DNA of 64,000 nucleotides, from NCBI RefSeq assembly GCF_026015965.1, contig NZ_CP110383.1:1615501-1679500 (forward strand). The letters are read 5' to 3'. The position numbers and the translations under genes are program-made. Below the pieces are notes generated by a model. The model was not told the DNA's origin and did not search any database. It worked only from the letters and a program-made list of their open reading frames with translations. This document shows, piece after piece, positions 21,885 to 37,372 of this stretch. Within the stretch, counting starts at the first letter, position 1, and each line of letters begins with the position of its first letter. This DNA is from Selenomonas sputigena (GTDB lineage Bacteria > Bacillota > Negativicutes > Selenomonadales > Selenomonadaceae).

Positions 21885-24800
21885 TTAGAAACGGAAATTC
21901 AACTGTGCCATGACGTTATGACTGTCGGAATCGTCGCTGTGGCGATATTGGTAACCGATTCCCCATGACATCGTCTTGCTTTCAGCATTCACACCGATAC
22001 TGCCGGAGATTGTCGAGTGGTCATAGATATCGTAGTGAACAACGCCCGATGCGCCGTTGACACCCGGAACAGATACGCGCATATCAGCTTCCGTGCCACC
22101 GAGAGCGGCGATGTAGGAAAGGTCGGCGTAGAACTTGTGCGTCCAGTCCTTCGACTTGGAAACACTTTGGATACCGACACCCACGGGAAGCGTCACGAGA
22201 CTCTTGCGACCCGGCTCATAACGGAGTGCCATCTGACCATCGCAATAACCGTCATAAGCTCCCATATCAACGCTTGTCCAACGCAGGCCAATGTGCGGGA
22301 TGATCACTTGATTTCCGCTTGCAATACGCGTTTCATGCGTGACACCGAGCGTAAAGAGATCGAGATCGGCATCGGCAGAAACGAAGCCATCCACCTCGTT
22401 CGTCGCCTTGTAAGCGCCGATATCGAACAGGAGGTTGTTGTTGCCGTTTCGCAGGCCTGCATAAGCATGTACACCGCCCATGCGCAAATCATTATTCTCC
22501 ACCCGGCCTGAGGTCGAACCTTTCACATAGCTCGCCGCAATTCCGCCGCGTAGCTTATTCTTTCCTGCAAAATCGTAACCAATCGTGATACTGTTTGTAT
22601 TACCATCAAAATTGGCATCCATGCCCTCAAGATTAAGTCCATCGACGTTAACGTGACTATGTCCATATTTGACCCATAAACTCTGCGGAACTATTTTATC
22701 GTCCGCATTGAGGAAGGACAGGCGCTGCTGGGCATCTGAGGCAAGATCGAAGACAGAACGCGTCGCCATATAGGAAACACCTGCCGCCTCGGCAGGCTGC
22801 ACACCTGCATTGGCGACTACATCAGAGTAGCGAGGATTGGTGGCAACCGAGACAAATTTTCTGGCGCCAGCATAGTAAGGGCTTGTGCTCGATGTAACCG
22901 CCGATACGGCATCAACGATATTAGTAACAGCACGATTTCCCTGCGGCATTGCCTCGACAGCAGCCACGCGCCGGAAAACCAACTTATCCGCATCGGCTGC
23001 TTCTGTGCTGAAACGATAATTCTTCGGCAGGATGACATTCTCCTCACGTGGCTTCGTCAACCAGTTATTTACTGTTGGATCAGCATTTTTGATCGTAGTA
23101 CCGTTGATAATATTGTACGCGATTCCCGGTGTGAGTATACCCGTCAGCTGCAAGCGCGAAGTCGGATCGACGGATATGGTCGTCGTTTCCGTGCCAGTGA
23201 CAAGTGAGTTGGAAGGACCTGTAAACGCAGCGGCATCGGCGATCAAGAGCGACTTTGCCTTGAACGTGATATTTCCCGCTGTCGCGAGGTCAGCCAAAGC
23301 AGTGCCTGTCGCAAGGGAGCCGTCGACTTTGACACCGCCCGTCGCATTGATCTTGAGTTGCTTACCGAGGTAGAGCGCCGCCGTAATCCCTTGTTCACCC
23401 CACGTTTTTCCTGACTTCTCGAAAGCCTCTTCAGCGACTGTTTCATTGTCAGCACCGAGCGAAGCTACAGAGTTGCGTCCAACGGTCAAACGGTAGTCAA
23501 GCTCAGCACTTGGATTGACGAATTTGGAAGCATTTTCGATATGGTTTGGCGCATTATTAATCCAATTCGGGTCGAGGAATACATCGGCATTCGTAAGCTT
23601 TGATCCTTGAGCGAGGAGCAGTTTACCAGCGTTATCATTATTACCAATATTGATTTTTACACCATCATCGGCATTGACCACAGTATCGTATATGCTTCCT
23701 TCGATATCGAGCGTAGCATTCTTTTCCAGCGTAATGCCGTTTTTCACCTTGAGTAGTGCATCTTTGTCAACTGTCACACTCGTATTTTCCTTCGCTTGAA
23801 CAGAGCGCACTGTTTGCTGCCCACTCACAACTTTCAATTTCGCCTTCGAAGCACCTATGCCCGCTTCACTGGCAGCGAGCGAGATATCGGCATTTGTATT
23901 GCCGATGAGCGACTTGTCGCCACGCCCGAGTGTCAGCGTGCCGCCACTCTCTATATCAACAGATACGCTCGTCGCAGCATCATCAGACGGCGTGCTGCCG
24001 CTGACCGTGATGAAGTCACCGCTCGCATCCTTATAGCCGAGGTTTAGCGTCGAACTGTTAGCGACGGTGATTTTATGCGGCTTCGTCGCATCCGTGAAGT
24101 CAATGGTCTGGATATGGTGTGTCTTGCCTGCCGCCGTCTGGATGTTCTGCTCCGTCGTGTGCGCAGCAGGTGGTGCGCTCGAAGCAGCAGCGTCCGTGCC
24201 CAGTGCATCAGACCACTGCGCATACTGCAAAGACTTCCTTGCACCGTTCCACATCTCAACCGTCGCATTCGAACTTTGCGCCTGAATGATCCCCTTTGCC
24301 TTTTCGAGGTACACATCGTTGTAGAAGCTGTCATCGAGCACAAGTCTGCCGCCGTTGATCGTGACATTATCGGTAAAGTTTTTGCGCAGGCTCTCGGGAT
24401 TTTCATTCGTTCCCACGGCATTAAGGCCCTTTGTAAAAAAGAGCTTGGATTTCCCCATGAGCGTGCCGTTGGGATTCAGCTGAATGGGGGCTTTATTCCC
24501 CGCTGCCTTCTCCTGGAAGTCGGAATCTCCCACCATGTGCAAAGTGGCATGCGTTTGCATCCCCGTGCCATACTTTTCGGTATTCTCGGGCGCAACAATA
24601 TCACCGGGCGCGACCGTGACGTTGAAGCGTCCCTGTCCGCTCTTAAAGTTCTTCGGCTCCGCTTCGATCGTGCCGTTGATGAGGTCGATATTGCCGCTCT
24701 CAAGATGGAACGTCACATCCTTCAGATCAGCAACAGCATCCGTATCCTGCACCGTATTTTGGATGGCACCCGAACCTTTTCTCCAATCGGGCGAGCCAAA

Positions 24801-26003
24801 ATTCAATGTGATGGAGCCGCCCTCACTTCCCTTCGGCCCCGCACCTGCTCCGACAGCAAGATCCAGCTGTTTTATCTTGTCGCCATCTTTGAGATCAAGA
24901 GTCGTCCAACTATAACCCCGATCGCGGATCCTCAGGATGCCGTCCTTTTTGATGTCAGAAGCTGTGAAATGTTCATGATGAAAATATTTTATGTCCCAAG
25001 GCTGCGGAATACCGTCCTTCACGGGGCGTTGGGTAGCCACATGGCGGATGCTTTTCTTCTCACCCAAAATCGTACGGATTGTAATCTCTCGGTCCTTAAG
25101 CAAATCGCTCGCCTTGAGGAGATACTCGTCATTGTGATGCAAGTCATTAAGGGCAAGCGTACCGCCGTTGAAATCGAGAGCATTTTGGGCGTCGTCGCGC
25201 ATCGCCTCGGGATTTTCCTGTTTGCCGTCATCTCCGAGCCCCTTTTGAAAAATCAAGGAGGAGGGCACCTCAAGCGTGCCTGTCTTATTCACATGGATAA
25301 AACGACTTCCAAAATATGGATTACCTGCTTCATCCTGCCAGTTACCATTAAACTTTGAATCCGAATCGGCGACGAGTTTCAGCGTGGCGTGCGTCTTTTC
25401 CAGAGCCGTACCTATTTCATTGGGATTATCCTCCGGTCGAGCTCCGATATCGAAGTCGCCGTGACCTTGACCTCCATAGATATTCTCGGGGCGGGCAATG
25501 ATCGTGCCGTTATAGTGGTGGAAACCGCCTCGATCCGCTTTGAAGATCACATTCGTCATATCCGCGACGGCAGTCGTATCCTTAAGACCGCTTGGATCAT
25601 TCGCGGCAATTTTCTCATAGTCGGCACCGAAGCTGAATGTCATTTCACCGCCTTCGTTAGAAACGGTCACATTTCCATTTGCATCGATGTTCTTATCACT
25701 TGTCCTGAGTTCCATGGCATTCGCTTTGTCACCATCTGCCAGATCAACGGAAATCCATCCCTGACCGACGACGCGAGCCTGCTTTATGCCCTCTTGATTA
25801 AGCCTGTTGACAGTCACACGGCTAGGGCTTCCTTCTTTATTCGTTTCTCTGTAATCGACAAACACCTTGCCTTCTGCCAGCGCCTGCTTGTACTCGTCGA
25901 GCGTCATCGCCGAGGCGTCGTTCGCTGTCAGCATGCCTGTCATGGAGCCGGCGGCTAACCCTGCCAGGACGGCGCGCGCAATCCTTTGTTCCTTTCGCTT
26001 CAC
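21885..26003 (-). CDS. Large autotransporter (type V secretion), beta-barrel C-terminus
   Basis: About 1,372 aa. Signal peptide: a basic start, then VLAGLAAGSMTGMLTANDASA. The passenger begins with two tandem modules of about 230 residues (roughly 70-300 and 385-620), each ending in a ...LIFQKGL / LFFTKGL ... NGGTL-type unit, followed by beta-helix-like repeats (~680-1,000). The autotransporter barrel is about residues 1,100-1,372 (VKYGHSHVNVDG; GGIAASYVKGSTSG) and ends NVMAQLNFRF with the C-terminal Phe of outer-membrane proteins. It is surface exposed or secreted; its ligand is unknown. GTG 26003 (AAGGAG 9 nt upstream) is preferred; ATG 26012 or 26054 are alternatives. Confidence 0.9.
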   Translation of the reverse strand: MKRKEQRIARAVLAGLAAGSMTGMLTANDASAMTLDEYKQALAEGKVFVDYRETNKEGSPSRVTVNRLNQEGIKQARVVGQGWISVDLADGDKANAMELRTSDKNIDANGNVTVSNEGGEMTFSFGADYEKIAANDPSGLKDTTAVADMTNVIFKADRGGFHHYNGTIIARPENIYGGQGHGDFDIGARPEDNPNEIGTALEKTHATLKLVADSDSKFNGNWQDEAGNPYFGSRFIHVNKTGTLEVPSSLIFQKGLGDDGKQENPEAMRDDAQNALDFNGGTLALNDLHHNDEYLLKASDLLKDREITIRTILGEKKSIRHVATQRPVKDGIPQPWDIKYFHHEHFTASDIKKDGILRIRDRGYSWTTLDLKDGDKIKQLDLAVGAGAGPKGSEGGSITLNFGSPDWRKGSGAIQNTVQDTDAVADLKDVTFHLESGNIDLINGTIEAEPKNFKSGQGRFNVTVAPGDIVAPENTEKYGTGMQTHATLHMVGDSDFQEKAAGNKAPIQLNPNGTLMGKSKLFFTKGLNAVGTNENPESLRKNFTDNVTINGGRLVLDDSFYNDVYLEKAKGIIQAQSSNATVEMWNGARKSLQYAQWSDALGTDAAASSAPPAAHTTEQNIQTAAGKTHHIQTIDFTDATKPHKITVANSSTLNLGYKDASGDFITVSGSTPSDDAATSVSVDIESGGTLTLGRGDKSLIGNTNADISLAASEAGIGASKAKLKVVSGQQTVRSVQAKENTSVTVDKDALLKVKNGITLEKNATLDIEGSIYDTVVNADDGVKINIGNNDNAGKLLLAQGSKLTNADVFLDPNWINNAPNHIENASKFVNPSAELDYRLTVGRNSVASLGADNETVAEEAFEKSGKTWGEQGITAALYLGKQLKINATGGVKVDGSLATGTALADLATAGNITFKAKSLLIADAAAFTGPSNSLVTGTETTTISVDPTSRLQLTGILTPGIAYNIINGTTIKNADPTVNNWLTKPREENVILPKNYRFSTEAADADKLVFRRVAAVEAMPQGNRAVTNIVDAVSAVTSSTSPYYAGARKFVSVATNPRYSDVVANAGVQPAEAAGVSYMATRSVFDLASDAQQRLSFLNADDKIVPQSLWVKYGHSHVNVDGLNLEGMDANFDGNTNSITIGYDFAGKNKLRGGIAASYVKGSTSGRVENNDLRMGGVHAYAGLRNGNNNLLFDIGAYKATNEVDGFVSADADLDLFTLGVTHETRIASGNQVIIPHIGLRWTSVDMGAYDGYCDGQMALRYEPGRKSLVTLPVGVGIQSVSKSKDWTHKFYADLSYIAALGGTEADMRVSVPGVNGASGVVHYDIYDHSTISGSIGVNAESKTMSWGIGYQYRHSDDSDSHNVMAQLNFRF

Positions 26004-26174
26004 TTTCTCCATCTCCTTTGAATGTCTTCCCTGTGAAACGCCGTTGCGAGCCATAAAGATTAAAATAACCTAGCTTATACTTCGACATCCCATTAGAAGT
26101 TCCCCACTAAAAATTAAAATTTAATAAAAATTTTAATTTGCAGCAATTTTTCACAACAGCACCCCTGCCAATGT
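26004..26174. other. AT-rich upstream region of the autotransporter gene
   Basis: It contains a near-perfect AT palindrome at about 26115-26150 (AATTAAAATT...AATTTTAATT) that could bind a regulator or serve as an UP-like element. No gene seen. Confidence 0.5.
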
Positions 26175-26266: not shown

Positions 26267-27616
26267 TCAGAGATGATCAAACGGCTTGTCCGGCAGATTG
26301 TCCATCGGGAACGCGCCGCGCGTGGCGGCATTTGCGGCTTCGATCGCCTGATGTGCGAGGTCGATCGAGAGGCCGAGCGTCCTCATGCACTGGTCGGGAT
26401 TGTGGAAGCCGACGCCGTTTTCGGCTTCGACGTAGTCCCAATACCACTGCGCTTCGCGAATCAGCTCACGCGCGGGAGCGAGCTGCTCGTCCGTCGCGCC
26501 GGCTTCTGCCGCCGCCTTGATGGCGAGATGCGCCTTGGCGCACGTGATGCCCGCCGTCCTCTGCAGCTTGAAGGTGTTGTCGTGGATCGTCTTGACGCGT
26601 GCGATGAGCACTTCCTTGCTTTCATCGTGGCACTTGAGGCATGCGTCCTCGACGTACTTCAACGGGCTGGAAATATAGTGCGACGTGTACTTCTGCCCAT
26701 TCTTGCGCATGTACGGCATGTGGCAGTCGATGCAGGTGACGCCCGCGTCCGCATGGACGCTCGTCTTCCAGACATCGTAGTCGGGATGCTGCGCCTTGAG
26801 CATCATCGCGCCCGAGTCGGGATGCTTCCAGTCGCCCTTGAAGCCGCCCGGCAGATCGGTGCGCTTGTAGTACTCGTACATCTGCTCCGCTGTGTAGCCG
26901 TTGTCACGCGGGAACACGACGCGGCCCTTCTTGCCCTGCTCGAAGTAATACTCCGTATGGCACTGGCCGCAGACGAGGGCGCGCTTGTCGTTGTCGCTGA
27001 GCTCGTCCCATGTCTTGCCCCAGTTGCGCTCAAGATCTTCGATCTGCGCAGGAATGACGAGACGCAGCTTCATCGTCTTGACGTCGTGGCACGTCGCGCA
27101 GGCGATCGAAGCGTCGTTCGGCACTTGATCGGCAAGCTCCTTGAAATCCTTCAGCGTGTAGTCCCAGCCCATCGTGTCGAAAAAAACGTCTTTCGTATAG
27201 GCGCTCTTACAGGTGATGCAAGAGCCCGACTGATTGACCTTGGTCGTGCGCAGCGAGTTCTTGACGTCCTCAAGCGCGTAGACATGGCCGCGGTCATCGT
27301 CATACTGCAGGGAAAAGGCATAGCCCTTCCAGTTTTCGATCATCTCGGGTTCGTCCATGAGCCTCGAATGGACGCCAGAACTGCCGTAGCCCGTCGGGGT
27401 CGGCGAATCGCTCGCCGTCATCTGATACGATTCGTATTCGAGCGGATATGCCTCCTTGAAGGCTTCCATGCCGAGATGGGCATTGTTCTCCGTCGGTATC
27501 TGAGCGAGCTTGACGGAACTCGATGGCTGGGCGATGCCGATGCGCACGATGACGAAACCGAAGAACGCAACGCAGACGACGATGACGCCCAGCAAACACT
27601 TTTGCAGCTTACTCAA
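26267..27616 (-). CDS. nrfA: Cytochrome c nitrite reductase, catalytic subunit
   Basis: 449 aa. Reduces nitrite to ammonium with six electrons on the outside of the inner membrane. Five haem sites: the catalytic CITCK (Lys-ligated), then CATCH, CGQCH, CIDCH and CLKCH. An N-terminal hydrophobic signal/anchor (LLGVIVVCVAFFGFVIV) is followed by the mature domain. Translation starts at TTG 27616, 7 nt after AGGAGGG, overlapping the last codons of nrfH by 8 nt. It is the last gene of the ccm-nrf operon. Confidence 0.97.
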   Translation of the reverse strand: MSKLQKCLLGVIVVCVAFFGFVIVRIGIAQPSSSVKLAQIPTENNAHLGMEAFKEAYPLEYESYQMTASDSPTPTGYGSSGVHSRLMDEPEMIENWKGYAFSLQYDDDRGHVYALEDVKNSLRTTKVNQSGSCITCKSAYTKDVFFDTMGWDYTLKDFKELADQVPNDASIACATCHDVKTMKLRLVIPAQIEDLERNWGKTWDELSDNDKRALVCGQCHTEYYFEQGKKGRVVFPRDNGYTAEQMYEYYKRTDLPGGFKGDWKHPDSGAMMLKAQHPDYDVWKTSVHADAGVTCIDCHMPYMRKNGQKYTSHYISSPLKYVEDACLKCHDESKEVLIARVKTIHDNTFKLQRTAGITCAKAHLAIKAAAEAGATDEQLAPARELIREAQWYWDYVEAENGVGFHNPDQCMRTLGLSIDLAHQAIEAANAATRGAFPMDNLPDKPFDHL

Positions 27617-28088
27617 CTTTGATCCCTCCTTCCAGGTGATTGGAGCCATGTGCCACACTCCTGTGGCACTTCAGGCAATCGGTATTGGCGTCCATCGGAC
27701 CTGCGTGGACGACTGCCATCGTCGCGCTGTGGCAGCGCAGGCAGTTGCCGTTCACGATCTTTTCTGCGTCTTCCGAGATGCGGATCTTGGCAGGATAGTC
27801 GCGCTTCAGCTCGTGGTAAACGTCGATCATGCCGCTTCGTCCCTTCTCGACGAAGTACGCCGTCATGCTGTCGTGCGGCAGGTGGCAGTCCACGCACTCG
27901 CGCTCCCGGTGCGACGATTCCATGAACGTCGCCTTCTCCATCTTCATCGCATGGCACTGTCCACAAAATGTGGGAGAGCCGGAAAACGACAGCCCCGCCG
28001 AAGTGCAGACGGAAAAGATGACGCCTGCGGCGAAGCCTCCGATGATGCACTTCAGCGTGTTCTTCTGAAAGAATTCCTTTGCTTCCAA
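27609..28088 (-). CDS. nrfH: NrfH tetraheme quinol dehydrogenase
   Basis: 159 aa, NapC/NirT family. One N-terminal membrane helix (IIGGFAAGVIFSVCTSAGL) and four haem motifs: CGQCH (with the downstream Met of the NrfH haem 1 site), CVDCH, CLRCH and CLKCH. It takes electrons from menaquinol and passes them to NrfA. It overlaps nrfA by 8 nt and follows ccmF by 54 nt. Confidence 0.96.
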   Translation of the reverse strand: MEAKEFFQKNTLKCIIGGFAAGVIFSVCTSAGLSFSGSPTFCGQCHAMKMEKATFMESSHRERECVDCHLPHDSMTAYFVEKGRSGMIDVYHELKRDYPAKIRISEDAEKIVNGNCLRCHSATMAVVHAGPMDANTDCLKCHRSVAHGSNHLEGGIKVE

Positions 28089-28142: not shown

Positions 28143-30239
28143 CTAGCATCTCCTCCTTAGGGCGCACGATGTGCCGAAAAAGGTGAATGCCGCACCGAGC
28201 CACAGAAGCCAGAGCAGTGGCTTGTTGCTGACGGACGCCGTCAGCGGCAGCCGTGCTTCCTCCTCGATTGCCGGCAGTATTTGCAGCATGATGCTCTTCT
28301 TGTCCTCGGAGATGCCCAAGAGGCGCAATCGCCTCTTGCCATTGAGAACGGCAAAGGATTCCGTCGCCGCCTTCATGCCTGCAGCCGTCAAACTGACTTC
28401 GGCGAGGTCGACGGTCTCGCCGTCAGTGACGGCGATGTCCGCGAGAAAGAGGCGGCGGCCCTCATCATCGGGCTCTTCTTCCACGACATGCTCCAGACGG
28501 TAGGCTACATCCCCCTCCAAAATGGCCTTGCCGCGCTGCAGCACGATCTCGTGACCGACGGCAGCAGGCGAGGGAGCAATGTAGATGTCGCCCGCCGCGC
28601 CGTGCGCGATAGCAGGCTCTCTCGCCGCATCCTCGCCGCTCGCACTGAGTTTCGTCAAGGCGCGCACTTCCTCGCCGTCGACGCGGAACACATACTCCTT
28701 CTCCCTGCGGCTTTCAGAAAGATCCATGCCCTCGTAGAGAATCGAGTTTCTGCCGAAGGACTGCGGCTCATCCGGCACAAACTCAAGTGTCGTGCTCGTT
28801 CCCGCCGCGGCGAGCGCTATCGTAAAAAGAGCCAGAGCCGCGCCCGCGTGTGCGACGGCTGCGGCAAGGCGAAGTGCACCGCCGCGCCAGGCGAGAACAC
28901 TCGCGAAGACGGCGGCAGCCGCAGCGCCCGCGAGGACGAGCGAGGAGACTTCTCGGACGCCTGCGAGTCCTGCCGCCGCCGCACCCGCGAATATAGCACC
29001 GATGAGAGCCTTTGGCAGCGATGCCTGACCCTCGCCATAGTGCAGCAAGGAGCCAACTGCCATCGCAAGCAGCATACAGATGGCGAGCGGCAGGCTCGTC
29101 TTGACGTAGAAGCCCGTGTCGACGGCGGCGGAATCGCCGCCAAGCCCTGTGAGAAGCGGCATCGACATGCCGATGAATACGATGATGGCGAGAAAGGTCA
29201 GGGCAAGACAGCCGAGCAAGAGGAAGAATTCGCGGCTTCGATGCACCGGGTACGGGGAGCCTTTGGGGAACTTTCCCGCACGCCAGACGAGAAGCGAAAG
29301 CCCCGCCAGCGCTACGATCGCATCGACGGCGACGAGCCAGAGGCCGACGCCCGTGCCGCTGAAAGAATGCACGGAGAAGTCGCCCAAAAGGCCGCTTCGC
29401 GCGAGGAACGTGCCGTAGAGCGCAAGCGCATAGGAGAAGATAGCAGAAAGGTGAGCGAGTGCGAGATTCGTCGGGCGCACGCGAGCGGCAGAGAGCAGGT
29501 GGACGAGGACGCCCGCCGCGAGCCACGGCACGAGCGAAGAGTTCTCCACGGGATCCCAGCCCCACCAACCACCCCAGCCGAGCACCTTGTACGCCCAGAA
29601 AGCGCCGACGAAGATACCCGCGCCGAGGAGCGCCCATGCAGCGAGCGCCCAGCTTCGCGCAAGCGCGAGCCACGCCGTGCTGTCCGCCTTTTCAGATAGC
29701 AGCGCCCCCAAGGACGCCGCATACGGCACGGCGAGCAGCGCGTAGCCAAAGAACACGAGCGGCGGATGAATTGCCATCCATGGGTCTTGCAGGAGCGGAT
29801 TCATTCCCGCACCGTCAGCAGGCGTATAGCCCTCCGTCACAGCAAACGGACTGTAGAAGAGGACGAGCGCCGCCAAAAGAGCCTGCAGAAAGAAGAACAC
29901 GGCCTGACCTGCATTCCCGAGCCGTGCGCGAAGGGCAAGCGCCGCGCCCGCCGCCGCATGGAAGAAAAGCCACAAGAGGAATGAGCCTTGCTGCCCTGCC
30001 CAGAAGGCAGAAACCTTGTAGACGAGCGGCAGATCGAGCGAGGAATAGCTCCACACATAGTCGATGTCGAAGCGATCGTGCAGAATCAGCCAGAAGAGCC
30101 ATGCGCTCGCCAAGGCCGCCGCGAAGAAGGAGGCGAGTGCGAGCGCCTTGCCCGCCGCCGCCTTTCCGCGCCCCCACGAAACTGCCGCCGCCAGCGCAAA
30201 GATGAGCGAGAGTACGAGGAATGCCGTGCCGGCTGTCAT
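28143..30239 (-). CDS. ccmF: Cytochrome c haem lyase subunit CcmF
   Basis: 698 aa with about 14 membrane helices and the tryptophan-rich haem-handling motif WGGWWGWDPVENSSLVPWL. It joins haem delivered by CcmE to apocytochrome c outside the membrane. Its ATG overlaps the ccmE stop (ATGA). The large soluble C-terminal loop (about residues 510-660) is typical. CcmH, the usual partner, is not in the operon. Confidence 0.95.
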   Translation of the reverse strand: MTAGTAFLVLSLIFALAAAVSWGRGKAAAGKALALASFFAAALASAWLFWLILHDRFDIDYVWSYSSLDLPLVYKVSAFWAGQQGSFLLWLFFHAAAGAALALRARLGNAGQAVFFFLQALLAALVLFYSPFAVTEGYTPADGAGMNPLLQDPWMAIHPPLVFFGYALLAVPYAASLGALLSEKADSTAWLALARSWALAAWALLGAGIFVGAFWAYKVLGWGGWWGWDPVENSSLVPWLAAGVLVHLLSAARVRPTNLALAHLSAIFSYALALYGTFLARSGLLGDFSVHSFSGTGVGLWLVAVDAIVALAGLSLLVWRAGKFPKGSPYPVHRSREFFLLLGCLALTFLAIIVFIGMSMPLLTGLGGDSAAVDTGFYVKTSLPLAICMLLAMAVGSLLHYGEGQASLPKALIGAIFAGAAAAGLAGVREVSSLVLAGAAAAAVFASVLAWRGGALRLAAAVAHAGAALALFTIALAAAGTSTTLEFVPDEPQSFGRNSILYEGMDLSESRREKEYVFRVDGEEVRALTKLSASGEDAAREPAIAHGAAGDIYIAPSPAAVGHEIVLQRGKAILEGDVAYRLEHVVEEEPDDEGRRLFLADIAVTDGETVDLAEVSLTAAGMKAATESFAVLNGKRRLRLLGISEDKKSIMLQILPAIEEEARLPLTASVSNKPLLWLLWLGAAFTFFGTSCALRRRC

Positions 30240-30610
30240 AATGAACCGCCTTTCATCTTTTCATACTTCGACGGACACTTGATGAGCAGCCGATCCGCCT
30301 CGAACGCGCCGTCCTTGTACGAGCCGACGGCAACGATGTGATGCGCCGAGCGGAATTGGTCAGGCTCCGTGCCGTGATAATGCACTTCCATCTTTTCTCC
30401 CGATTCATCGACGAGTCCGAAGACGAAATTCTTCCCCTTCTGTGCGGGTGCCGGAGCATCCGGATCGAGAAGCCCCTTGACCTGCACGGAGCCGTGCGCC
30501 GACCGCGCCTCGGCGATGTCGACATAGGGCGTGATGCTGTCGGCGAACGCCCAGCCCGCATAGAGGACGAAGAGGGCGATGAGTCCGAAGAGCACATACG
30601 ATTTTTTCAT
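30236..30610 (-). CDS. ccmE: Haem chaperone CcmE, CxxxY variant
   Basis: 124 aa. N-terminal membrane anchor (SYVLFGLIALFVLYAGWAFA), then an OB-fold (VQVKGLLDPDA; EKMEVHYHGTEPDQF). The haem-attachment segment is LLIKCPSKYE. The residue that binds haem covalently is Cys in a CxxxY motif rather than the common His of HxxxY; the codon is TGT. This variant defines the 'System I*' type of Ccm machinery known from some archaea and sulfate reducers. It lies between ccmC (3 nt gap) and ccmF (overlap). Confidence 0.94.
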   Translation of the reverse strand: MKKSYVLFGLIALFVLYAGWAFADSITPYVDIAEARSAHGSVQVKGLLDPDAPAPAQKGKNFVFGLVDESGEKMEVHYHGTEPDQFRSAHHIVAVGSYKDGAFEADRLLIKCPSKYEKMKGGSL

Positions 30611-30613
30611 GCG

Positions 30614-31231
30614 TCAGTCCTCCTTGACAGACCGAAAGAGCAGTGCGAAATAGAGCAAGGTCGCGTCGACAAGGCCGAGCGCGAGCACGCCGATCATCAA
30701 CGGCTCCATCGCCACATGTGCGCCGCTATTCAGAAGAGGCTCGGGATGCAGCGAGAAGTAGAGGCGCGGCAAAAGGAAGACGAGGAACGGCACGGTCAGA
30801 AAGGAAAAGAGCGAGTAGACCGCCGAGACGAGCGCGCGCCCACGGTTTTCGGGCACAGCCGAGCGCAGCGTGAGATATGCGCCGTAGATAAGGATGAGTA
30901 CGAAGATCGTCGTCTGGCGCGGATCCCAATTCCACCATGCGCCCCACGAAAGGCGGCTGAAGAGCGCGCCCGTCGCCGTGGCGAAGATCACGAAGAAGAA
31001 GCCGAGCTTTGCCGAGCGTGCGCTCAAGGCGTCGAAGCGTTCCCTTCGGCATCGCAGGAAGCGAAGCGCCCACCACGCGCTCAGAAGAAAGGCGAGAACC
31101 GAGACCCACGCCGCCGGGACATGGAAGAAGACGAGGCGCACATAGTCGCCTAGGCCTTCTGCGGGCGGCACGAGGAAGAACACAGCGGCGAAGAGCGCTG
31201 CTGTCAGCACGATGATGAGGACGCGAAGCAT
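30614..31231 (-). CDS. ccmC: Haem exporter/handling protein CcmC
   Basis: 205 aa, six membrane helices. The WWD motif reads WGAWWNWDPRQT. The two haem-ligand His sites are in VFFHVPAAW and SGAHVAMEPL. It loads haem onto CcmE. Start ATG 31231. Confidence 0.95.
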   Translation of the reverse strand: MLRVLIIVLTAALFAAVFFLVPPAEGLGDYVRLVFFHVPAAWVSVLAFLLSAWWALRFLRCRRERFDALSARSAKLGFFFVIFATATGALFSRLSWGAWWNWDPRQTTIFVLILIYGAYLTLRSAVPENRGRALVSAVYSLFSFLTVPFLVFLLPRLYFSLHPEPLLNSGAHVAMEPLMIGVLALGLVDATLLYFALLFRSVKED

Positions 31232-31285: not shown

Positions 31286-31966
31286 TCAGATTTCCTGCCA
31301 TACGAAGTCGAAGAGCCACGAGGCGCCGAGCGTCAGGATCATGTCGTAGAGCGCCATCGCACCGAGCAGGGAAGAGGACGGCAGGAGGGAGCTGAAAAGC
31401 TCTCCCGTGAGATTGAGCGCGGGCAGGAACACGGGCAAAACGACGGGCAGCAGCAGCACGGAAAACAGTCCGCTCTTCGCGCCCGCCCCGACCGTCAGCG
31501 CCGAGACGATGACGCCCGCCGCCGCCAAACCCCAGATGCCCAAGAATACGACGAGGAGAAAGACCAGGGCGGCGAAGAAGTCCGCCAGCGAAAAGCCGAG
31601 AAAGACTTGAAAGAGCGCTAGGTCAAAGACGGCGAGCGCCGTGAGCATGAAGAGCGTGTAGCAGAATTTGCCGACGAACACCGCCTGCGCTCCGGCATAG
31701 ATGCGCAGGGCGAGCAGCGTGCCGCTCGCCGCCTCCTCGTAGAACGCCCGGCCGACGCCCGCCTCCGCCGAGAAAAACAGCACGACCCACAAGAGTCCCG
31801 CCGCTACCTGCGGCTCAGGCGGCGCACAACGAAGCGCAAAGGAAAGCGCCGCGATCGCCGTCAACGAAAACATGAACATCGCCGCCCAGGAGGAGCGGCT
31901 GCGCATGGCACAGGCGACCTCCCTACGAAAGATGAGCCGCGCCCCCTGCAATGCAGATCCTTGCAT
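31286..31966 (-). CDS. ccmB: Haem ABC exporter permease CcmB
   Basis: 226 aa, six membrane helices. It begins MQGSALQGARLIFRREVACA, as CcmB proteins do. With CcmA it forms the ABC transporter that releases holo-CcmE. The ATG at 31966 follows GGAGGTG and lies inside the end of ccmA (44-nt overlap); the longer frame upstream is ccmA shadow. Confidence 0.92.
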   Translation of the reverse strand: MQGSALQGARLIFRREVACAMRSRSSWAAMFMFSLTAIAALSFALRCAPPEPQVAAGLLWVVLFFSAEAGVGRAFYEEAASGTLLALRIYAGAQAVFVGKFCYTLFMLTALAVFDLALFQVFLGFSLADFFAALVFLLVVFLGIWGLAAAGVIVSALTVGAGAKSGLFSVLLLPVVLPVFLPALNLTGELFSSLLPSSSLLGAMALYDMILTLGASWLFDFVWQEI

Positions 31967-32576
31967 CGGCAGCCACCTCCTCTTTTTGCTCGTTCGTCGC
32001 CCAGAGCACGAGCCGGCCTTCTGCCGCCGCTTCGCGTGCGAGCGAGGCGAGGAGCGTGCGCCCTTCCTCATCGAGGTTCGCGCCAGGCTCGTCGAGCAGC
32101 CAGAAGGGCGCATCCGCGCCGAGCAGCACGGCGAGCTTCAGACGCTGGCGCATGCCCGTCGAGAAGCTTGCCGTCTGCATCCGCCAGGCCTCTGCCCCCT
32201 TGAGTCCCACGCGCGCGAGGAGCGTCCGCCGCGCCGCATCGGAAAGCGCAATGCCGCGCAGTCCAAGGAAGAAGTCGAGGTTCTCCGCCGCCGTCAGCAG
32301 CGGGTAGAGCGAAAGCTCGGGCGAGAGATAGGCGAGATTCGCCTGCCACATCGCTCCCTCGGCCTCTCCCGCCGCCGTCCGCAGCGCGACACGCCCTTTT
32401 GTCGGACGCAGAAGCCCCGCCGCCAGGCGCAGGAGCGTGGACTTGCCGCTGCCGTTCGCCCCGCGCACGCTGGCGACGATGCCGCCCGCAAGCTCAAAGG
32501 AAAGTCCCCGAAGTACGCTACGACCCGCGAAGGATATGCCCGCATCCTCGAAGGAAAGCGTCAAGGATTTTTCCAA
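31923..32576 (-). CDS. ccmA: Haem ABC exporter ATPase CcmA
   Basis: About 217 aa. Walker A GANGSGKSTLLRL, signature FSTGMRQRLKLA and Walker B FWLLDEPGANLDEEG. The start is taken at TTG 32576 after AAGGAGAG, giving MEKSLTLSFED; a GTG at 32597 is possible. It is the first gene of the ccm-nrf operon. Confidence 0.93.
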   Translation of the reverse strand: MEKSLTLSFEDAGISFAGRSVLRGLSFELAGGIVASVRGANGSGKSTLLRLAAGLLRPTKGRVALRTAAGEAEGAMWQANLAYLSPELSLYPLLTAAENLDFFLGLRGIALSDAARRTLLARVGLKGAEAWRMQTASFSTGMRQRLKLAVLLGADAPFWLLDEPGANLDEEGRTLLASLAREAAAEGRLVLWATNEQKEEVAADARICIAGGAAHLS

Positions 32577-32634
32577 CGGCAGCACTCTCCTTCGCACTTC
32601 GTCACAATAAGAAATGTTATCGATTTAATTTATC

Positions 32635-32779: not shown

Positions 32780-33037
32780 TCAATCGTAGTGACCTTTACA
32801 GGACAAAATCTCCAACGAATCTCGCGACACCCGATAAAGCAGACGGTTCTTCTCGTCAATTCTCCGACTCCAAAAGCCGCTCAACTCTCCTCTGAGCGGC
32901 TCAGGCTTGCCGAGTCCCTCGAACGGGTGACGTTCGACATCCTTAAGCAGCAGGTTGATCCGTTTCAAGGTTTTCTTGTCCTGCATCTGCCAAGCAATGT
33001 ACTCTTCCCACGCATCGTCCGACCAGACCTTATTCAT
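32780..33037 (-). CDS. YoeB/Txe-family mRNA interferase toxin
   Basis: 85 aa. Typical Txe/YoeB sequence: WSDDAWEEYIAWQMQDKKTL, GKPEPLRGELSGFWSRRIDE and NRLLYRV, ending with His-Tyr near the C-terminus (SCKGHYD). These toxins cut mRNA at the ribosome A site. The ATG overlaps the antitoxin gene by 8 nt. Confidence 0.92.
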   Translation of the reverse strand: MNKVWSDDAWEEYIAWQMQDKKTLKRINLLLKDVERHPFEGLGKPEPLRGELSGFWSRRIDEKNRLLYRVSRDSLEILSCKGHYD

Positions 33038-33305
33038 CGTCTGCAACCTCGATCAAATCGTGCTGCACGCCTTTTCCAGCATCAAGCTGCGCAATGCCGC
33101 GACGCAAACGTGCCAGGCTCTTCTCCGAATAGAGCGAATCCGTCAGAGGAGCGGCTCTCAGTTCAAACGGAATCCTGCGCTCCCGCGCGACGCGCCGCGC
33201 AAAGATCAAGATAGCGGAAGGCGCAGAAAGTCCGATATCCGCACACACTTCTTCAAAATTCGATTTCAAATCATCGTCCATGGATACAACAATATCCTGT
33301 GCCAT
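33030..33305 (-). CDS. RelB/DinJ-family antitoxin
   Basis: 91 aa with an N-terminal ribbon-helix-helix (DIVVSMDDDLKSNFEEVCAD, then SAPSAILIFARRVARERRIP). It would dimerise on its own promoter and neutralise the adjacent YoeB-like toxin. The ATG at 33305 follows GGAGGTG by 6 nt. RelB with YoeB is a mixed but known pairing. Confidence 0.9.
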   Translation of the reverse strand: MAQDIVVSMDDDLKSNFEEVCADIGLSAPSAILIFARRVARERRIPFELRAAPLTDSLYSEKSLARLRRGIAQLDAGKGVQHDLIEVADDE

Positions 33306-33475
33306 TCGACGCACCTCCATAAGCTTTATTTCTTTCATTATATACCATTGCCAATGAATCCTCAAACGAAATTCCTCGCGAATTCTGCGGCTGAGAACTG
33401 GACGCAGATGCGTTTCACGCTTATAATATAGGGAAAGACGGATTACATATCGGTTAAAGACGAGGACGATGCTTT

Positions 33476-35251
33476 ATGAACAAAAATTTCTTCCAAGCGG
33501 CGCGAGAGACGGATCTCGCCGAGAAGCGGCGGCTGGATCGGCGCGGACAGCTGCTTTCCTGGCTGCGCCTCACGACGTTCTTCCTGTGCCTTCTCGCGCT
33601 CGCCGCCGCCTGGGACACGGGCGCACTTGAGATATATCTCGTCGCCGTCGCGCTCGCCTGCTGCTTCACCGCGCTCCTGCGCCGTCACGGCAGGCTCTTC
33701 GAGCAGCGCCTGCTCTTGGAGAGCCACATCGCCGCGCTTTCAAACTTCCTCGCACGATTTTCGGGAGAGTGGCACAACTTTCCTGTGACGGGCGCGGAAT
33801 ATCTGAGGGACGAATTGCCGCAGGCGCAGGATCTGAGCCTCTTCGGCGCTGATTCCATCTACCAGTACCTTTGCGCCGCACGCACGAAGGCGGGGCGCGA
33901 CCGCCTCGCCGACGCGCTCTCCCCCTTCCCTGCCGATCTCACGCTTGCGAGGAAGAGGCAGAAAGCCGTCGAGGAACTGATCGCCCGCCCCAGGCTCGTC
34001 CTCGACCTCACGGCAGCAGCCGCCCTTCTGCCCGACGGGCACGATACGAAGCCGCTCCTCGCAGCGCTGCAAAGAAATACAGAGAAGCCCTACGCGGGCA
34101 CGGCCTTCATCGCGTGGGTTCTTCCCGCCGCCCTCGCGCTCGCCGTCGTCGGCGCATCGCTTTCCCTCATCGGCTGGACGATGCCCGCCATGCTCGTGCT
34201 GCTGCAGTTCCTCATCGCCTTCGCGCTCGGCAGGCGCACGGCAGCCGCGCAGAAGCCGCTCGCCGCCATGCACCGCGAATTGCGCCTCTACGAGCGTCTC
34301 TTTTCGCGCCTCGAAGATGCGACATTCCAAAGCCCGCACCTTATCGCACTGCAGGCGCAGCTCAAGGCGGGCGGCGCCGCGCGCTCCCTGCGCCGCCTCG
34401 CCGCCCTCGCCGATCATGCGCACACGCGTCACAACCTCATCTTCCTGCTGCTCGCCAACGCCTTCTTCCTCAGCGACCTGCACTTCGCGCACCGCATCGC
34501 ACACTGGCAGGAAAAGGCCGCCGCGCACCTCGGCGACTGGCTCGCCGTCTGGGCGGAGACCGAAGTGCTCCTCTCCCTCTCGACCGTGGGACTCGTGCGC
34601 GAAGTGTACACGTTCCCCGAACTCCTCGAAGACGCTTCGCCGCGCCTCGAAGCCAAGAACTTGACCCATCTCCTGATTCCCGAGGAAAAGGCTGTGCCGA
34701 ACGACATCGACGCGACGGCAAGCACGCGCATCATCACGGGATCGAACATGTCGGGCAAGACGACGTACCTCAGAACCGTCGCAAGCGCCTGCGTCCTCGC
34801 CTACGCGGGCGCCCCCGTGCCGGGCGAACGCTTTCGCCTCTCGCCGCTTCACATCTTCACCTCGATCCGCGTGACGGACGACGCGGCGCACGGCCTCTCC
34901 ACCTTCTATGCCGAAATCCTGCGCATCAAGAGCATGATGGCGTTCAAGGAAAAGAGCCTGCCCATGCTCATCGTCATCGACGAAATCTTCAAGGGCACGA
35001 ACAGCGCCGACCGCCTCATCGGCGCAAGGGAAGCCATTTCGCGCCTCACAGGCGCGGACTTCATCACTCTCGTCTCCACGCACGACTTCGAGCTTTGCGA
35101 GATCGAGAGCGACGCCGCCCCCGTAACGAACTGGCACTTTGAAGAAAGCTACGAGGATGACAAACTCCTCTTCGACTACAAGATCAAAGAAGGACGCTGC
35201 ACGACGCGCAACGCTCAGTATCTGCTGAAGATGGCGGGCATCATGGAGTGA
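33476..35251 (+). CDS. Membrane-anchored MutS-family ATPase
   Basis: 591 aa. It lacks the mismatch-recognition and connector domains of MutS1. It starts with two membrane helices (about residues 28-45 and 50-66), has a second hydrophobic pair around 205-245, then a MutS core and ATPase: Walker A GSNMSGKTTYLR (~421), Walker B MLIVIDEIFKGTNS and switch STHDFEL. Proteins of this layout occur sporadically in bacteria, with no established role in mismatch repair. A TATAAT at 33422-33427 is the likely -10. Confidence 0.85.
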   Translation: MNKNFFQAARETDLAEKRRLDRRGQLLSWLRLTTFFLCLLALAAAWDTGALEIYLVAVALACCFTALLRRHGRLFEQRLLLESHIAALSNFLARFSGEWHNFPVTGAEYLRDELPQAQDLSLFGADSIYQYLCAARTKAGRDRLADALSPFPADLTLARKRQKAVEELIARPRLVLDLTAAAALLPDGHDTKPLLAALQRNTEKPYAGTAFIAWVLPAALALAVVGASLSLIGWTMPAMLVLLQFLIAFALGRRTAAAQKPLAAMHRELRLYERLFSRLEDATFQSPHLIALQAQLKAGGAARSLRRLAALADHAHTRHNLIFLLLANAFFLSDLHFAHRIAHWQEKAAAHLGDWLAVWAETEVLLSLSTVGLVREVYTFPELLEDASPRLEAKNLTHLLIPEEKAVPNDIDATASTRIITGSNMSGKTTYLRTVASACVLAYAGAPVPGERFRLSPLHIFTSIRVTDDAAHGLSTFYAEILRIKSMMAFKEKSLPMLIVIDEIFKGTNSADRLIGAREAISRLTGADFITLVSTHDFELCEIESDAAPVTNWHFEESYEDDKLLFDYKIKEGRCTTRNAQYLLKMAGIME

Positions 35252-35374
35252 TGCGGGAAAAGCCTTGCCAACCGCGCCTTCGTCTGCTATGCTTATAGCC
35301 TGCACGCACGCTCCCCGCTTTGCGGACACTCGTGCACGGCCTTATCTTCACTCTGCTTGTTGGGAGGAATCATC

Positions 35375-37372
35375 ATGGAAATCCTGCGCTCGGTCTGTCC
35401 CTACGACTGTCCCGACTGCTGCGGCCTTCTCGTCGAGGTCGAGGACGGGCTGGCACGAAAGGTCAAAGGCGATCCCGCACACAGCTTCACGCGCGGCACG
35501 CTCTGTCCGAAAATGGCGCATTACGAGCGCACCGTCCATTCGCCGCGCCGTCTCCTCACACCGCTCAAGCGCACGGGAAAGAAGGGCGCAGGCGAGTTCC
35601 GTCCGATTTCCTGGCCCGAAGCGGTGCAGGAAATCGCCGCACGCTGGCAGGAAATCATCGCGCAGTACGGCGCGGAGGCCATACAGCCCTACTCCTACGC
35701 AGGAACGATGGGACTCTTGCAGCACGACGCCTATCACGCGCTCTTCCGCGCACTCGGAGCGGCAGAGCTTGACCGCACGATCTGCTCCCCCGCAAAGCGT
35801 CATGGCTGGAACTCCGTCATGGGAGCGACCCTCGCCATCCGCCCGCAGGAAGCACAGCAAAGCGATCTCATCATCCTCTGGAGTCTCTCCATGCTCGCGA
35901 CGGACATCCACTTCGCGCACGATGTGCAGGTGGCAAAAAAGCGCGGCGCCAAAATCTGGTGCGTCGATACATACGAGACGGCAACGGCGCGCCAGGCCGA
36001 CCGCGCCTTCTTCGTGCGCCCCGGCACGGACGGCGCACTCGCGCTCGCACTGCTCCACGTGCTGGAAAAAGAGAGCCTCACAGACGAGGCTTTCCTCGCC
36101 GCGCATGTCCAAGGCTGGCAAGAACTGAAAAAAGATGTCCTGCCGCATCATACGCCGGAAAGCGCCGCTGCCGTCACGGGACTTTCTCCCGAGGCCATAC
36201 GAGAACTCGCCCTCGCCTACGGCAAGGCGCGCGCGCCTTTCATCCGTCTTGGCAGCGGCTTCTCGCGCTATACGAACGGTGCGATGACGACGCGCCTCCT
36301 GCTCGCTCTGCCCGCCGCCGTCGGCGCATGGAAGAAGCCGGGCGGCGGCCTCCTCTCCTCCGTGCCGGGCAGCCGCGCCTTCAGCAAGGACATCGTGCAG
36401 CGCCCCAACCTGCGGAAAAACGTGCGCCTCGTCAACATGTGTGAAATCGGCAACGCCTTGACCTCCGCCTCGAAGCCGCCCATCAAGAGCCTCTTCGTCT
36501 ACTCCTCGAATCCTGCCTGCACCGCGCCCGACCAGAAGAAAGTGACCGAAGGGCTTCTGCGCGATGACCTCTTCACCATCGTGCACGAACGCTTCCTGAC
36601 CGACACGGCGCTCTATGCCGACATCGTGCTGCCGGCGACGACCTCGCTCGAGCACAGCGACATCTATGCAGCCTATGGACACTACACGATCCAGCGTGGC
36701 GAAGCCGTTATTCCGCCCGTCGGCGAGTCGAAGCCGAACTGGGCAGTCGCCTGCCTGCTGGCCGATGCCTTAGGGCTTGACGACCCGTTCTTCAAAAAAA
36801 GCGAGGATGAACTCATCGACGAGCTGATCGCCTCGACCGACGCCTGGCCGCTTCCCGTAGACAAGGCAGCACTCGCCACAGGACTGCCCGTCGACCTTCC
36901 TCTGCCCGAGAATTACAAGCTCGACTTCAAAACGCCCTCGGGCAAGATCGAACTGCTGAACCCGAAGGAAGAGCCGCCCCTGCCCGACTACTTCCCCGCC
37001 CACGGCGACGACGAACCGTTCCAATTCATCAGCGCTCCCGATCCACGCATCCTCGACTCCTCTTTCAACGAGCGCGAAGAACTCTCGCGCGGCAAAGTCA
37101 TGGAACTGCTGATGCACCCCGACGATGCAGAAAAGCTCGGGCTTGCGGACGGCGATCCCGTCGTATGCAGCAACGAGCGCGGCGCGGCCGGCTTCACGCT
37201 CGCCCTGAGCCGCCGCGTCCGCCCCGGCACGCTCGTCAGCGAAGGCGTCTGGTGGCGTGCCTACTGCAAGGGAAGGCGCGGCCTCAACATGCTGACCAGC
37301 CAGCGCCTGACCGACAAGGGCGGCGGCAGCACCTTCTACGACGTAAACGTCCGCATCGAGCGGGAGTCGTAA
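35375..37372 (+). CDS. Molybdopterin oxidoreductase (bis-MGD, one 4Fe-4S cluster)
   Basis: 665 aa. N-terminal 4Fe-4S ligands in CPYDCPDCCGL and GTLCPKMAHY. The molybdopterin-binding domains follow (SDLIILWSLSMLATD; IRLGSGFSRYTNG; SLFVYSSNPACTAPD). The C-terminal MGD-binding domain has RGKVMELLMHPDDAEKLGL and EGVWWRAYCKG. There is no Tat signal and no partner subunit in the operon, so it is probably cytoplasmic. Substrate unknown. The ATG at 35375 follows GGGAGG. Confidence 0.9.
   Translation: MEILRSVCPYDCPDCCGLLVEVEDGLARKVKGDPAHSFTRGTLCPKMAHYERTVHSPRRLLTPLKRTGKKGAGEFRPISWPEAVQEIAARWQEIIAQYGAEAIQPYSYAGTMGLLQHDAYHALFRALGAAELDRTICSPAKRHGWNSVMGATLAIRPQEAQQSDLIILWSLSMLATDIHFAHDVQVAKKRGAKIWCVDTYETATARQADRAFFVRPGTDGALALALLHVLEKESLTDEAFLAAHVQGWQELKKDVLPHHTPESAAAVTGLSPEAIRELALAYGKARAPFIRLGSGFSRYTNGAMTTRLLLALPAAVGAWKKPGGGLLSSVPGSRAFSKDIVQRPNLRKNVRLVNMCEIGNALTSASKPPIKSLFVYSSNPACTAPDQKKVTEGLLRDDLFTIVHERFLTDTALYADIVLPATTSLEHSDIYAAYGHYTIQRGEAVIPPVGESKPNWAVACLLADALGLDDPFFKKSEDELIDELIASTDAWPLPVDKAALATGLPVDLPLPENYKLDFKTPSGKIELLNPKEEPPLPDYFPAHGDDEPFQFISAPDPRILDSSFNEREELSRGKVMELLMHPDDAEKLGLADGDPVVCSNERGAAGFTLALSRRVRPGTLVSEGVWWRAYCKGRRGLNMLTSQRLTDKGGGSTFYDVNVRIERES

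Follow-up and report, generated by a model that had tools for sequence, protein, structure and literature searches.

A CcmH- and CcmD-less CcmABCEF operon with its probable client NrfHA in Selenomonas sputigena and other Negativicutes

In Selenomonas sputigena, a compact operon found in the 64,000-nucleotide stretch of DNA analysed here (the window) very probably represents a minimal cytochrome c maturation machine of the System I* kind, CcmABCEF, together with its client NrfHA, a nitrite-to-ammonium reductase, and this reading explains the evidence as a whole best. In the proposed mechanism, CcmABC would load haem onto Cys112 of the chaperone CcmE without any need for CcmD, CcmE would hand the haem to the lyase CcmF, and CcmF would attach it to NrfHA, at eight CXXCH motifs and a single CXXCK motif. 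Machine and client are thus combined in one small bacterial unit, which bears on how System I* works without CcmH and on how haem is attached to the CXXCK motif of NrfA outside the few species tested.

The operon and its Cys-type haem chaperone

The seven genes lie on the minus strand in the order ccmA-B-C-E-F-nrfH-nrfA, from position 32597 down to 26267, and form an intact and almost gapless operon (Table 1), in which ccmE and ccmF overlap by the sequence ATGA. The start of ccmB at 31966 is an inferred one, the mechanical reading frame opening at 32113, and the real start of nrfA probably lies near 27613. Promoter and terminator scans of the operon region yielded nothing decisive. The surroundings comprise a YoeB-type toxin and RelB-type antitoxin pair directly upstream of ccmA (32780-33365, minus strand), the gene of an autotransporter-type surface protein of 1389 aa directly downstream of nrfA (21885-26054, minus strand) and, divergently upstream of the operon, the genes of a MutS domain V-type protein and a molybdopterin oxidoreductase (33476-37372, plus strand). 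In one relative (L037:5063-5734) a Crp/Fnr-like regulator gene, possibly regulating the operon, overlaps the start of ccmA.

Table 1. Features of the ccm-nrfHA operon, with positions counted in the window
Feature	Position	Strand	Description	Basis
ccmA	31923..32597	-	ATPase, haem-handling ABC module	TIGR01189 135.8 bits, exceeding cut-off 131.6
ccmB	31286..31966	-	membrane subunit	PF03379 49.9 bits, cut-off 24.9
ccmC	30614..31231	-	haem presentation to CcmE	PF01578 75.5 bits; TIGR01191 93.2 bits
WNWDP of ccmC	30920-30934	-	tryptophan-rich motif	motif read
ccmE	30236..30610	-	Cys-type haem chaperone, 124 aa	PF03100 62.2 bits, cut-off 24.6
CPSKY of CcmE	30263-30277	-	C112-P-S-K-Y116; C112 is the expected covalent haem attachment residue	motif read
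ccmF	28143..30239	-	haem lyase, 698 aa	PF16327 above cut-off; TIGR00353 242 bits, under its cut-off 569
WGGWWGWD of CcmF	29553..29576	-	WWD haem-handling motif	motif read
D1 of CcmF	28590..28805	-	first periplasmic beta-cap, residues about 479-550	profile comparison with CcmH-bearing CcmF tails, 97.4% probability; predicted strands
D2 of CcmF	28224..28589	-	inserted, most likely second beta-cap, residues 551-672	length; D1-D2 profile match; predicted fold
nrfH	27609..28088	-	tetrahaem membrane quinol dehydrogenase, 4 CXXCH	PF03264 above cut-off; TIGR03153 110.2 bits, under cut-off 134.2
nrfA	26267..27658	-	pentahaem nitrite reductase	PF02335 402.6 bits
CITCK of NrfA	27206..27220	-	lysine-type haem 1 (active-site) motif	motif read

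An earlier note on this DNA had read the haem-attachment motif of CcmE as CPSKY instead of HXXXY, and this is confirmed by the motif itself; when the protein is aligned by profile with its E. coli counterpart of known structure (1SR3), C112 takes the place of the haem-binding histidine and Y116 that of the conserved tyrosine. Since each of the 90 CcmE frames read at Negativicutes loci, which include overlapping ones, contains CP[ST]KY, CPSKY is not a chance occurrence. By analogy with characterized relatives, C112 would carry the haem covalently: the CcmE of Methanosarcina (PMC9084895) binds haem via the same cysteine, as does that of D. desulfuricans (PMC3601427, PMC9084895). Counter-evidence comes from D. 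vulgaris, for whose CcmE a non-covalent binding of haem in vitro was reported (cited in PMC3884852), and the literature searched yielded no experiment on any Negativicute. The occurrence of System I* with CPSKY among Firmicutes had been described as early as 2011 (FEBS J; PMC3601427), so that the core claim of the earlier note is not new.

Maturation genes in the genome and across the Negativicutes

The genome consists of one closed contig of 2,613,980 bases, of which the window covers positions 1615501-1679500 and which was searched by family profiles and sequence patterns. The CcmE family has a single member there, and the only matches to PF01578, the CcmC/CcmF/CcsA family, are the CcmC and CcmF of the operon, such that CcsA, and with it System II, is absent by this profile search. 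No CcmH match exceeded the cut-off of PF03918; a weak match at G000:C1:2306208 (E 0.28, under the cut-off, within a 629-aa frame) was taken as chance. The ccmH search proposed by the earlier note was run along with a search for what the note had named as contrary evidence, a separate HXXXY CcmE and a ccmH elsewhere, and the family searches detected neither of them, nor a second CcmE of any kind or a CcsA. With one CcmF only and no CcmH/NrfF, a dedicated lyase of the NrfEFG type is likewise not encoded in the genome. At the level of the class, CcmE was present in 140 of 380 Negativicutes genomes, while PF03918 detected CcmH in none of the 380, the same search being positive in four known genomes. 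At five loci (L056, L072, L075, L077, L084) ccmABCE copies occur without an adjoining ccmF, and three of the five genomes concerned (L072, L075, L077) hold more than one CcmE.

The statement that the operon contains no ccmD, ccmG, ccmH or ccmI holds for its gene content, and for ccmD and ccmH it extends to the entire genome. A TPR gene of the CcmI type is missing from the operon, by whose content CcmI was judged, and the absence of ccmG likewise applies to the operon: an unlinked gene pair for CcdA and a TlpA/ResA-like lipoprotein (82 bits against a CcmG cut-off of 123) is located at about 2.215 Mb, ~570 kb away. Because this pair exists, a route of thiol reduction outside the operon is possible; the thiols might be held reduced by the anaerobic periplasm and perhaps also by the pair. 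In Methanosarcina acetivorans, comparable ccmG and ccdA genes are present and non-essential under laboratory conditions (PMC9084895).

The loss of ccmD is a feature of the class. The ccmE start follows the ccmC stop after only 3 bases, which leaves no room for ccmD between the two genes, and a CcmD profile revealed no CcmD-like gene in the closed genome. When public genomes were scanned with the CcmE alignment, 566 confirmed relatives emerged, the best 80 of which were used and belong to Negativicutes, Acidobacteriota, Zixibacteria, Eisenbacteria, Calditrichota, a Desulfovibrio MAG and other Bacillota. Relatives from other phyla have an additional gene between ccmC and ccmE, about 35-54 codons long and encoding a single membrane span, and the Desulfovibrio MAG (L114) keeps ccmD too; in Negativicutes loci, ccmC and ccmE touch or overlap and no gene intervenes. 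A ccmD profile built from the intervening gene matched about 35 non-Negativicutes loci and no Negativicutes locus. Applied to whole genomes, it detected ccmD in all 11 control genomes (E 2e-11 or better) and gave no convincing match in any of 50 Negativicutes genomes (best E 0.002, for a 13-residue piece), with the limit that the divergent E. coli CcmD is missing from its hit list and very divergent CcmDs could escape it. A hidden ccmD overlapping ccmC or ccmE was rejected, since the same screen detects ccmD in nearly all relatives from other phyla. CcmH is also missing from 28 of 31 genomes of other phyla; hence, as these relatives keep ccmD yet mostly do without CcmH, the latter was lost in a wide group and ccmD additionally in the Negativicutes. 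A MAG labelled Clostridiales (L110), which branches within the Negativicutes clade, also holds a ccmD-less ccmABCEF-nrfHA operon.

The set might be less minimal than it appears if further, unrecognised partners were encoded elsewhere, such as a non-homologous CcmD or CcmH or a CXXCK-specific factor, an alternative that is regarded as unlikely. The absences were established by sequence profiles, or for CcmI by operon content, so an unrelated protein replacing CcmD or CcmH could have escaped notice, and the CcdA/TlpA-like pair does exist; on the other hand, CcmABCEF of Methanosarcina suffices in a naive archaeal host without CcmD, CcmG, CcmH or CcmI (PMC9084895), and the Negativicutes operon displays no recurrent extra gene.

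CcmF, its probable clients and its likely second beta-cap

NrfH carries four CXXCH motifs, while the haem motifs of NrfA follow the order K-H-H-H-H: CXXCK at haem 1, then four times CXXCH. Every one of the 42 full-length NrfAs that were read shows this arrangement. When the genome was scanned for these patterns on both strands, with clusters and not single motifs being judged, nrfHA was the only cluster of CXXCH motifs among the matches listed. Maturation of NrfHA would accordingly fall to the operon's own Ccm proteins, and because the genome holds one CcmF and no CcmH, this CcmF would have to serve CXXCK without NrfEFG or CcmH. For CXXCK attachment, NrfEFG in E. coli, CcmI in Shewanella and NrfI in Wolinella have been described in a 2025 review, which presents NrfHA as matured by System II (PMC12285233); the NrfHA of the window is an exception to that assignment. 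Depending on the genus, nrfHA is situated downstream of, upstream of or apart from ccm. Some Negativicutes ccm operons adjoin a five-CXXCH NapC/NrfH-like protein and FAD-binding proteins, which may be other clients (L044:3499-10000, L075:8434-16001). In Sporomusa malonica (L087, 10925-14189; same genome as L105), two tandem nrfHA pairs follow one ccm operon. NrfHA complexes are also among the few known cytochromes of Sporomusa ovata, a member of the Negativicutes used for microbial electrosynthesis (PMC9253864).

CcmF retains the four haem-ligand histidines H173, H261, H303 and H491 (E. coli numbering) as well as the WWD motif, and the AlphaFold model of the whole protein (mean pLDDT 91) has CcmF 6ZMQ as its best structural match (Z 38.3). 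A beta-cap above the active-site haem is known in CcmF and CcsBA (PMC10663686), and judging from profile comparison and predicted strands, D1 corresponds to the one cap that E. coli CcmF has. D2 is inserted ahead of the last membrane helix, after a conserved D[IL]Y, and comprises 122 aa, where the same segment measures 21 aa in the CcmFs of E. coli, Rhizobium, Serratia and Caballeronia and in E. coli NrfE. Nearly all CcmH-less bacterial systems read possess an insert of 119-142 aa, extended to 235-237 aa in three Acidobacteriota, while Metabacillus, with a CPSKY CcmE and CcmH (PF03918), has a segment of 22 aa, and the CcmF tails of Cytobacillus and Pseudonocardia, which also possess CcmH genes, are short as well. 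The Metabacillus and Cytobacillus systems, comprising a CPSKY CcmE, CcmH and a CcmF without second cap, are encoded on plasmids (L182, L183; 5791-12080).

D2 is most likely a second copy of the beta-cap, as suggested by profile comparison and structure prediction. The profiles of D1 and D2 match at E 1.4e-7, against 0.02 for the best of 60 reversed or column-shuffled controls, and CcmH-bearing CcmF tails match D2 as well (95.5%, compared with 97.4% for D1). The AlphaFold model of the insert alone reached a pLDDT of 93, the cap region is all-beta in this and in the whole-protein model, and among solved structures CcmF 6ZMQ and CcsBA rank first for the insert model (Z 10.7, 10.7 and 9.9; next 8.1), the Foldseek E-values being weak at 0.03-0.08. 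The D2 sequence gave no convincing match in Pfam or the PDB, and D2 as a CcmE-like domain was dismissed after a negative profile comparison. A literature search of limited reach returned no report of a duplicated CcmF cap.

The doubled cap is a candidate substitute for CcmH: it may keep the apocytochrome in place above the active site, a role in which CcmH takes part in E. coli, and it thereby offers a specific and removable candidate for the missing CcmH function. According to a more far-reaching account, which is put forward tentatively, a tandem duplication of the cap took over apocytochrome holding from CcmH in the common ancestor of the bacterial Ccm systems without CcmH and the Negativicutes later dropped CcmD, resulting in a five-protein machine with one CcmF for CXXCH and CXXCK. 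A quite plausible alternative, still short of probable, is that the second cap has nothing to do with CcmH and constitutes an inherited feature of one CcmF clade, for instance a docking site for Cys-type CcmE or CcmC, which is connected to the loss of CcmH by common ancestry only. In a CcmF tree built without the tail, the two-cap CcmFs form one clade (97/98), to the exclusion of the CcmH-bearing E. coli, Rhizobium, Serratia, Metabacillus and Pseudonocardia; since the second cap arose once on this tree, its association with CcmH loss is little replicated independently. Moreover, Propionispira-type CcmFs (L044, L045), which branch inside the two-cap clade and must therefore have lost the second cap, have no CcmH either, so that the cap is not strictly needed, and one MAG (L165) combines a second cap with a CcmH elsewhere in its genome. 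In opposition to a mere clade feature of this kind, the cap does not track the CcmE cysteine, as the CPSKY CcmEs of Metabacillus and Cytobacillus coexist with CcmH and a single cap, and an enlarged tail, with 256 aa after the last haem histidine, occurs too in a haloarchaeal plasmid CcmF (L184) that has no ccmH in its vicinity. Homology of this enlargement to D2 is not claimed because of a long branch and poor alignment. The CcmE of the same plasmid displays neither CXXXY nor HXXXY.

Ancestry and comparison with known maturation systems

The operon recurs across Selenomonadaceae and Sporomusa-type families, and its host is a member of the Negativicutes, not an archaeon, as attested by the sister genome and the named loci of the family. 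A tree of concatenated CcmABCF unites all Negativicutes and L110 in one clade (99), within which Sporomusa-type and Selenomonadaceae sequences separate and branching follows the families; the window groups beside its sister species, with 97% identity between their Ccm proteins across the columns of the concatenated alignment, and then with another Selenomonadaceae genome. Within the class, CcmF and NrfA distances correlate with r 0.85, a value as high being reached in 0 of 2000 permutations, which supports co-inheritance of ccm and nrfA, with the reservation that shared ancestry alone would also produce such agreement. The suggestion of the earlier note that the operon may have moved as one cassette finds no support: the relationships of the Ccm proteins reflect descent at the level of the class, while nrfHA shifts its place or is replaced by another client. 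A recent transfer of the whole unit between phyla is highly improbable; it would be in line with the frequent adjacency of ccm and nrfHA, with the two or three ccm copies of several Sporomusa genomes and with the position of the MAG labelled Clostridiales inside the class, yet the single Negativicutes clade, the placement of the window next to its relatives and the variable gene order argue against it, and the relatives in other phyla keep ccmD and show no linked nrfHA. Taken together, the data fit a succession in which a Cys-type CcmE accompanied by CcmH was followed by cap duplication and CcmH loss, and these by the loss of ccmD in the Negativicutes; the branches that set the order of the first steps are weak.

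Compared with System I of E. coli and its NrfEFG proteins, the operon shares a lyase of the CcmF/NrfE type with the same histidines and WWD motif and an NrfA with CXXCK. The E. coli system differs by its CcmD, CcmG and CcmH, by a His-type CcmE, by a CcmF with a single beta-cap and by the dedicated NrfEFG lyase for CXXCK. In Wolinella, NrfI, a CcsBA protein of System II, also matures an NrfA of the NrfHA type, whereas the genome of the window is devoid of CcsA.

The likeness to System I* that the earlier note had perceived stands as far as the Cys-type CcmE, the lack of CcmH and the tie to NrfHA are concerned, but the Desulfovibrio gene set differs and the set of the window is that of archaeal CcmABCEF. 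System I* of D. desulfuricans (Goddard et al. 2010, as described in PMC3601427 and PMC9084895) is likewise a bacterial operon system with a Cys-type CcmE and no CcmH or CcmG (for the window, CcmG in terms of operon content), the absence of CcmH being usual and not universal in the published System I* family. In contrast to the Negativicutes, D. desulfuricans has and needs ccmD (PMC9084895), and it possesses a CcmI that enhances output (PMC3601427), while the operon of the window has no TPR gene and, unlike the D. desulfuricans system, includes its client NrfHA.

The streamlined set of M. acetivorans (PMC9084895) has in common with the window CcmABCEF without CcmD, CcmH or CcmI (for the window, CcmI in terms of operon content), a CXXXY CcmE and unlinked CcdA and thioredoxin-like genes. 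It differs in that its CcmF is split in two, whereas the window combines a bacterial host, one operon, a one-piece CcmF and an NrfHA client with CXXCK. The CcmABCEF set has been called archaea-specific, and the missing CcmD was tentatively linked to archaeal membranes (PMC9084895), an explanation that is weakened because a whole bacterial class has the same set; a literature search of limited reach found no report of a ccmD-less set in bacteria. Hence, the ccmD-less five-gene set across a bacterial class and the doubled CcmF cap, with its putative role, are what this operon adds to the known System I*.
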